DNA of 64,000 bases, taken from NCBI RefSeq assembly GCF_003319095.1, contig NZ_QOHI01000001.1:248001-312000 (forward strand). The letters run 5' to 3'. The first letter of the stretch is position 1. Each line of letters begins with the position of its first letter. Source of the DNA: Blastococcus sp. TBT05-19. Lineage in GTDB: Bacteria > Actinomycetota > Actinomycetes > Mycobacteriales > Geodermatophilaceae. Below, piece after piece: positions 9,583-9,745 of the stretch. Made by a program: the position numbers and the translations under genes. The notes below the pieces were generated by a model that worked only from the letters and a program-made list of their open reading frames with translations, made no database searches and was not told the origin of the DNA.

Positions 9583-9605
9583 GAGGAGGCTCCTGGTGCG
9601 GGCTG

Positions 9606-9707
9606 CCGTGCGCGGAGTGCGCACGGGCTCCGGAACGGTCAGCGGACGCCGGGAGACGCCAGAACCCCGCGGCGAGGAAGCCGACCTAGGAGAGGGCCTC
9701 GCCGCGG
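9606..9707 (-). promoter_or_regulatory. leuA attenuator: mutually exclusive hairpins
   Basis: Read on the minus strand. A perfect 11-base stem pairs CCGCGGCGAGG (9697-9707) with CCTCGCCGCGG (9667-9677). Its 5' arm lies within the leader peptide codons, starting five bases after three consecutive Leu codons (9713-9721). The 3' arm can instead pair downstream, CGCCGCGGG (9666-9674) with CCCGGCG (9647-9653). Another hairpin, CCGTGCGC/GCGCACGG, spans 9606-9626 close to the leuA ribosome site. A ribosome stalled at Leu codons would mask the first 5' arm and free the alternative pairing. The layout is seen directly; the direction of control is inferred from leucine attenuators known in actinobacteria. 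Confidence 0.75.
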
Positions 9708-9733
9708 CGGGTAAGCAGGAGGCTGCCGCGCAC
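9686..9733 (-). CDS. leuA leader peptide, 15 aa
   Basis: GTG at 9731-9733 opens a 15-codon frame [15 protein letters not shown] ending in TAG at 9686-9688. Four of 15 residues are leucine, three of them consecutive (CTC CTG CTT). The -10 hexamer TACCGT ends only six bases before the GTG, so the mRNA likely begins at or next to the start codon (leaderless). The peptide's codons overlap the attenuator stem. It has no function expected beyond sensing charged tRNA-Leu. Confidence 0.75.
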
Positions 9734-9739
9734 GTTCCC

Positions 9740-9745
9740 ACGGTA
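9740..9745 (-). promoter_or_regulatory. leuA -10 element
   Basis: TACCGT on the minus strand, six bases upstream of the leader-peptide GTG, just outside the 3' end of the XRE regulator gene. No good -35 hexamer is visible at 16-18 bases. The spacing matches the leaderless promoters elsewhere in the window. Confidence 0.5.

Follow-up and report, generated by a model that had tools for sequence, protein, structure and literature searches.

A LEU element 5' of leuA, its leader leaderless by promoter spacing, and its probable role in translational attenuation

We analysed the region 5' of leuA in a window of 64 kb, i.e. the whole stretch of DNA under study, whose minus strand carries, in this order, a -10-like TACCGT box, a GTG opening a leucine-rich leader ORF of 15 residues, an 11-bp hairpin (P1) and leuA itself. 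With a Leu-run leader ORF 5' of leuA, a pseudoknot of crossing helices and a base stem between the Leu run and the Shine-Dalgarno (SD) sequence, the element is a further instance of the LEU element and not a new kind. Its leader is leaderless judging by promoter spacing, and the element probably acts by translational attenuation. From the sequence, this reading is supported by the anatomy, by class-wide conservation, by covariation of P1, of the pseudoknot and more weakly of the Leu-codon/SD stem, and by the lack of any terminator-like site, while a nested minimum-energy fold that does not place the SD on the Leu codons stands against it. Pseudoknot and Leu-codon/SD stem, which both carry the likely mechanism, were absent from an earlier sequence-only reading of this DNA. 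That reading had regarded a leaderless leader of this kind as undescribed, a claim which fails because the LEU element (PMC1262725) and a counterpart reported as leaderless in S. lividans, LeuL1 (PMC8079986), are already published; leaderless polycysteine attenuators of mycobacteria bear on it as well.

Anatomy of the element before leuA

The regulated gene is assigned by its match to NCBIfam TIGR00970 (E 3.3e-260, 864.5 bits against a cut-off of 697.4), and the features upstream of it are collected in Table 1. TACCGT, the GTG six bases on, the 15-residue peptide with LLL and the 11-bp hairpin 5 nt after the Leu codons all lie where the sequence-only reading had put them. The range given there ended at 9583, which is the base before leuA; the gene itself starts at 9582. 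The arms of P1 pair perfectly over 11 bp, the 5' arm lying inside the leader ORF. The pseudoknot (GGTCGGC/GCTGACC) comprises 7 bp including one G-U, and the base stem (CTCCTG/CAGGAG) pairs Leu codons 1-2 with the leuA SD over 6 bp. The second hairpin, read across relatives, recurs with small changes in some loci (e.g. L003-L007) and is absent from others (e.g. L017-L019, L021-L024).

Table 1. Features of the leuA upstream region, in positions of the window
Feature	Position	Strand	Basis or remark
-10-like box TACCGT	9740..9745	minus	6 nt 5' of leader GTG; leaderless promoter geometry
Spacer GGGAAC between TACCGT and GTG	9739-9734	minus	sequence reading
Leader ORF, 15 codons, GTG start 9733-9731, stop TAG 9688-9686	9686..9733	minus	sequence reading; relatives
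Putative sensor Leu codons CTC CTG CTT (last one the otherwise uncommon CTT)	9713..9721	minus	codon counts in relatives
P1 5' arm CCGCGGCGAGG, overlapping the codons of the conserved R-G-E	9697..9707	minus	covariation, swap test
P1 3' arm CCTCGCCGCGG	9667..9677	minus	covariation, swap test
Pseudoknot strand GGTCGGC in the P1 loop; its first G doubles as the third base of the stop TAG	9680..9686	minus	swap test
Pseudoknot partner GCTGACC, 3' of P1	9637..9643	minus	swap test
CTCCTG, Leu codons 1-2, putative anti-SD, 5' strand of the base stem	9716..9721	minus	swap test
CAGGAG, leuA Shine-Dalgarno and 3' strand of the base stem	9590..9595	minus	sequence reading, swap test
Second hairpin CCGTGCG...CGCACGG, 5' of the SD, outside the conserved element	9606..9626	minus	comparison of relatives
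leuA, 2-isopropylmalate synthase, regulated gene, ATG at 9582	7849..9582	minus	NCBIfam TIGR00970

Short ORFs of 8-31 codons following the pattern TANNNT-N5..9-[A/G]TG occur exactly once in the window, namely as the leuA leader, and this sole ORF carries LLL and is followed by a hairpin of 10 bp or longer. Dinucleotide shuffling, repeated 60 times, yielded a mean of 2.7 such ORFs, 0.017 with LLL, and no case in which LLL was followed by a hairpin of that length. The strand of the element also folds more stably than shuffled sequences (z -2.35, with 2 of 200 shuffles equally or more stable). The nested minimum-energy fold, drawn by a method that cannot represent pseudoknots, keeps P1 but has the GTG region paired to the bases immediately 5' of the SD; the SD itself falls into a small local hairpin. 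With the Rfam 15 covariance models, the window as a whole gave only a tRNA at gathering threshold; within 9500-9850 nothing matched even at E up to 1, and ten related loci gave no match.

Conservation and covariation in relatives

Conservation was assessed over 110 leuA loci, of which 30 come from the window's own genome and relatives (the close-relative search matched 58 of 60 genomes, with loci given for 30) and 80 are the best of 592 from wider genome contigs. The peptide and hairpin of the sequence-only reading both recur there. A loose pattern finds a Leu-run ORF at 107 of the 110 loci, with TANNNT 4-9 nt 5' of such a start at 86, and the leader peptide is the same or near-identical in the loci of 29 other relatives (L003-L031). 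The LeuA of a further locus, L032, stands at 94% identity, and the relatives would suggest a place in Geodermatophilaceae. Among the 106 loci that could be parsed (four could not), P1 reaches at least 10 bp in 102, its core follows the last Leu codon by exactly 5 nt in 100, and the stop codon falls inside the P1 loop in 97. A pseudoknot of at least 5 bp is possible in 96 and a Leu/SD stem of at least 5 bp in 100 of these loci, both being counts without a chance control.

Alignment A1, comprising 68 of the 106 parsed elements, has 98.0% of its P1 cells paired and 46 changed on both sides, compared to a shuffled mean of 14.0. R1, a covariance model whose structure is P1, found matches at E<=0.01 in 287 of the 296 class genomes sampled, a match not necessarily lying 5' of leuA; the element is common to nearly all sampled class members. 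In a draw of 296 genomes from the phylum, 36 matched at E<=0.001, namely 26 within the class and 10 outside it (10/270, the out-of-class total being deduced from the kinship order of the genomes). Four of these 10 are strong, and in the sequence fetched all four lie 5' of leuA; for two of the six weak ones the stretch was fetched as well, and it held no leuA. In the window's own genome, R1 gives one strong match, which is the window element (E 7.1e-12), and 11 further ones at E 0.18-4.0.

Which of the pairings covary was addressed by swap tests, in which the best contiguous stem formed by native strands was compared with the stems obtained after one strand had been swapped among species, over 20,000 swaps. 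The set was taken from 149 loci after 28 of the 31 close-relative loci had been left out; the parser missed 11, leaving 138 leuA elements, which were cut by similarity to 64 non-redundant ones. In these 64, P1 (z 9.3) and the pseudoknot (z 6.5) both gave native scores that 0 of 20,000 swaps reached, and pairing of both helices in relatives is thus firmly supported at sequence level. For the Leu-codon/SD stem, z was 3.9, with 3 of 20,000 swaps reaching the native score. A looser test based on duplex energy placed the native SD window at a mean percentile of 0.41, with 16% in the best tenth, values reached in 0 of 20,000 permutations. As controls, the Leu run was paired with two other stretches (z 2.0 and 1.6), and the SD with the segment preceding the Leu run (z 2.1). 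The comparative data therefore support the Leu-codon/SD stem as a real pairing with a smaller effect and the weakest signal of the three, part of which may reflect relatedness or composition, since two of the three controls reach z of about 2.

A different partner for the 3' arm of P1, CCCGGCG at 9653-9647, had been put forward in the sequence-only reading as the competing strand. Testing the arm against 37 nt starting 8 nt downstream gave z 1.0 in the 64 non-redundant elements, with 3403 of 20,000 swaps reaching the native score; this proposal was dropped for lack of covariation. The signal seen in the redundant 138 (z 3.2, 19/20,000) is ascribed to relatedness, and by eye only about 5 contiguous pairs can be formed.

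Leader start and level of control

In actinobacteria, a short spacing between TANNNT and the start codon is the geometry of leaderless promoters. Of the 64 non-redundant elements, 53 have TANNNT 5-9 nt 5' of a codon that could open the leader; the five following bins of 5 nt contain 11, 11, 2, 0 and 1. The commonest spacings are 6 and 7 nt, and a second, smaller set of elements has 9-10 nt. The last Leu codon of the leader is CTT in 57 and CTC in 7 of the 64, while in the leuA genes that go with these elements CTT accounts for 5.6% of leucine codons. These codon and spacing counts are not blind, since the parser accepts an element only if two or more of the three codons preceding P1 encode Leu. 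They are also partly preselected, as 67 of the 149 loci had been detected with a model that covers the Leu codons. One tRNA reads both CUC and CUU, so that sensing of leucine alone would not explain the preference for CTT. An anti-SD role would fit this choice, as CTCCTT is the exact complement of AAGGAG.

For LeuL1 of S. lividans, the peptide is MRFGLLLLSCRGEGL, and the report describes it as 'transcribed leaderless' and without a typical Rho-independent terminator (PMC8079986). Taken together with the spacing in relatives, this counterpart argues for a leaderless leucine-codon leader of leuA in the window, as the sequence-only reading had held. The opposite case, in which transcripts begin further 5' and the -10-like box occurs by chance, appears very unlikely. 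Longer 5' ends are nevertheless possible, because a consensus scan found no sigma-70-type promoter-like site in 9400-9900 and because a same-strand ORF has its end at 9754, at a distance of 20 nt from the GTG, which makes read-through into the leader possible. Such upstream transcription would have to be squared with the peak of TANNNT spacings at 6-7 nt and with the published start in S. lividans. The upstream ORF itself (213 residues, 9754-10395, minus strand) shows an N-terminus that resembles an XRE-type helix-turn-helix by eye and has no NCBIfam match.

In the model we favour, transcription would start at or beside the leader GTG and ribosomes would begin leader translation at the very 5' end of the RNA, with the Leu codons serving both as leucine sensor and as complement of the leuA SD. 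When charged tRNA-Leu is plentiful, the ribosome would clear the Leu codons, terminate inside the P1 loop and leave; P1 and the pseudoknot would then draw the Leu codons to the SD, so that the base stem closes and leuA translation is switched off. When leucine is short, a ribosome stalled on the Leu codons would cover them, leaving the SD free and leuA translated, both the stalling and the direction of the switch being our assumption. A leaderless sensor ORF would tie the switch to initiation at the 5' end, which responds to stress and drugs differently from SD-dependent initiation.

The sequence-only reading had allowed that control could act on translation instead of termination, and our data make translation the likelier level: the consensus scan of 9400-9900 returned 0 terminator-like sites and no terminator hairpin with U-tract, and the Leu/SD stem covaries. 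Attenuation at the level of transcription, with a stalled ribosome or the closed structure setting Rho-dependent or hairpin termination before leuA, is thus improbable, even though it has precedents in the leader peptides with terminators at ilvB and leuS of actinobacteria (PMC1262725, PMC8079986) and in the Rho-dependent attenuation suggested for cys leaders (PMC1262725). Besides the empty scan, it is countered by the lack of covariation of the competing strand at 9647-9653 in the non-redundant set, and by the conserved base stem, which ends on the SD and not in a terminator. Reinitiation at leuA after the leader stop was also considered and is unlikely, as the leader stop (9686) is about 100 nt away from leuA (9582), compared to leader-to-gene distances that peak at 10-11 bp in the context of reinitiation (PMC4833913).

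The 2005 authors favoured a binding protein for the LEU element (PMC1262725), and a corresponding switch, in which the pseudoknot is the binding site of a regulatory protein that keeps the leuA SD closed while leader translation is incidental, would agree with the compact, conserved pseudoknot and its constant 5-nt spacing from the Leu run (100/106). It could also draw on Leu-codon mutations in S. coelicolor, which, as told in PMC1262725, were 'not consistent with classical attenuation', and Craster reported leuA reporter results in the same species that the title calls 'paradoxical' (1999, via PMC4340878). These mutations do not decide the matter, because in the dual-role model sensor and anti-SD are hit together, and an argument from mutation cannot part the two if the same bases serve both. 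The protein-based explanation further leaves unexplained the start codon at leaderless spacing (53/64), the kept Leu run and the Val/Ile/Leu codons in the leuB-linked copies described below, and we regard it as unlikely. If the Leu codons do act as sensor and anti-SD, any mutation would alter two things at once, which could explain the S. coelicolor paradox; a clean test would then lie in third-position changes that keep leucine and lose the pairing. Apart from translational attenuation, a transcription factor may act on top of the leuA element, low-level binding of NdgR having been reported at the leuA promoter of S. coelicolor (PMC4340878).

Copies before other genes and comparison with known systems

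Sixty class genomes with at least two R1 matches were searched again, and 104 matching loci were read. The element lies before leuA in 67 of them, second leuA copies included, and elsewhere in 37, which divide into 7 before leuC, 17 with a leuB start downstream, 9 leuB-like ones without leuB in the fetched DNA, 3 before unidentified ORFs and one (L254) whose match looks spurious by eye. The leuC copies (L150, L177, L197, L199, L202, L218, L219; family f51) have LLL leaders at leaderless spacing and stand directly before the gene; leuC was confirmed by NCBIfam for L150 and by sequence reading for the other six. The leuB copies (L158, L188, L207, L226-L228, L230, L231, L235, L236, L238-L240, L244, L248, L249, L255), in which leuB was assigned by reading with three pieces confirmed by NCBIfam, mostly have mixed Val/Ile/Leu codons instead of LLL, e.g. 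MRSVFVLIDCRGEA and MLWTVRILRCRDEAR. The nine further loci have a leader or small ORF like those of the leuB-linked copies. In family f8, L241, L242 and L252 carry LEU-type elements with the leaders MSWQKLLVTRRSGV, MSRMLVVRRRSGV and MTWKLLVTRRSGV before the unidentified ORFs.

In 19 of 23 leuB-type loci (L235 is not among the 23), we recognized a conserved short ORF, about 20-46 residues long, whose core reads A-x-Q-x-x-x-D-x-R-[DE]-x-G; the pattern used found no small ORF in the other four. At loci that show leuB, this ORF separates the element from the gene; it ends in ...QEAMDRRDNGGETGH or similar. Five examples gave no Pfam or NCBIfam match above cut-off. A profile built from 13 of these ORFs found it in 41 of 148 class genomes and did not find it in the window's own genome. 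For the base stem of the Val/Ile/Leu copies, 4735 of 20,000 swaps reached the native score, in a set of only 19 loci, which does not show the stem there and counts among the points against the favoured model. In two loci of the Streptomyces-like genus g53 (L283, L285), the small ORF precedes leuB behind a different, highly similar upstream stretch (GTCTCAGATAGTAGGAAGTCCGAGTAA...), with no obvious LEU-type element; the leuA leader in L215 of this genus reads as in S. lividans. Upstream of leuB and leuC of the window's own genome, no LEU-type element was seen. Its leuB (G000:C20 near 130468, L261) shows TAGGGT, 8 nt and ATG close behind an upstream coding frame, and may, by this spacing, be leaderless itself.

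The LEU-type module before leuC and, with Val/Ile/Leu codons, before the short ORF near leuB goes beyond the literature found: titles and abstract openings of the open-licence literature gave no report of such an element before leuC or leuB, and the available part of the 2005 description names only leuA and a transposase gene downstream (PMC1262725). A wider interpretation, which we advance tentatively as a possibility, is a modular leaderless translational switch whose sensor codons are the anti-Shine-Dalgarno, built on a constant hairpin-pseudoknot platform with an exchangeable codon run (LLL before leuA and leuC, Val/Ile/Leu before the short ORF near leuB). Were it true, it would imply a class-wide branched-chain amino acid regulon built on translation from the very 5' end.

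Leader peptides of leuA are also known from corynebacteria (PMC5784534, PMC4046766), and a ribosome-protected uORF has been reported 5' of leuA in M. abscessus (PMC4974804). Classical attenuators such as trp (PMC1262725) and ilvBNC of C. glutamicum (PMC11857589) likewise place their sensor codons in a small ORF that is followed by alternative RNA structures; unlike the window element, for which none were found in 9400-9900, they have terminators, with poly-U tracts in the trp cases. The LEU element as described by Seliverstov in 2005 agrees with the window in its Leu-run leader, its pseudoknot, its base stem between Leu codons and SD, the absence of an obvious terminator and its position before leuA, where it was found in most actinobacteria studied (PMC1262725). 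The available part of that work does not treat leaderless initiation and draws on about twenty genomes, in contrast to the strand swaps over 64 sequences performed here. LeuL1 of S. lividans TK24 (PMC8079986) shares with the window a 15-residue leader before leuA, a Leu run, the same RGE segment and the lack of a typical terminator, while its peptide differs from that of the window and its leaderless start was measured, where ours is deduced from spacing. The leaderless polycysteine attenuators of mycobacteria (Canestrari 2020, cited in PMC9031893 and referenced in PMC13236596) have codons for cysteine and not for leucine, and resemble the element before leuA in combining a leaderless short ORF, a run of codons for the sensed amino acid and control of what lies downstream.
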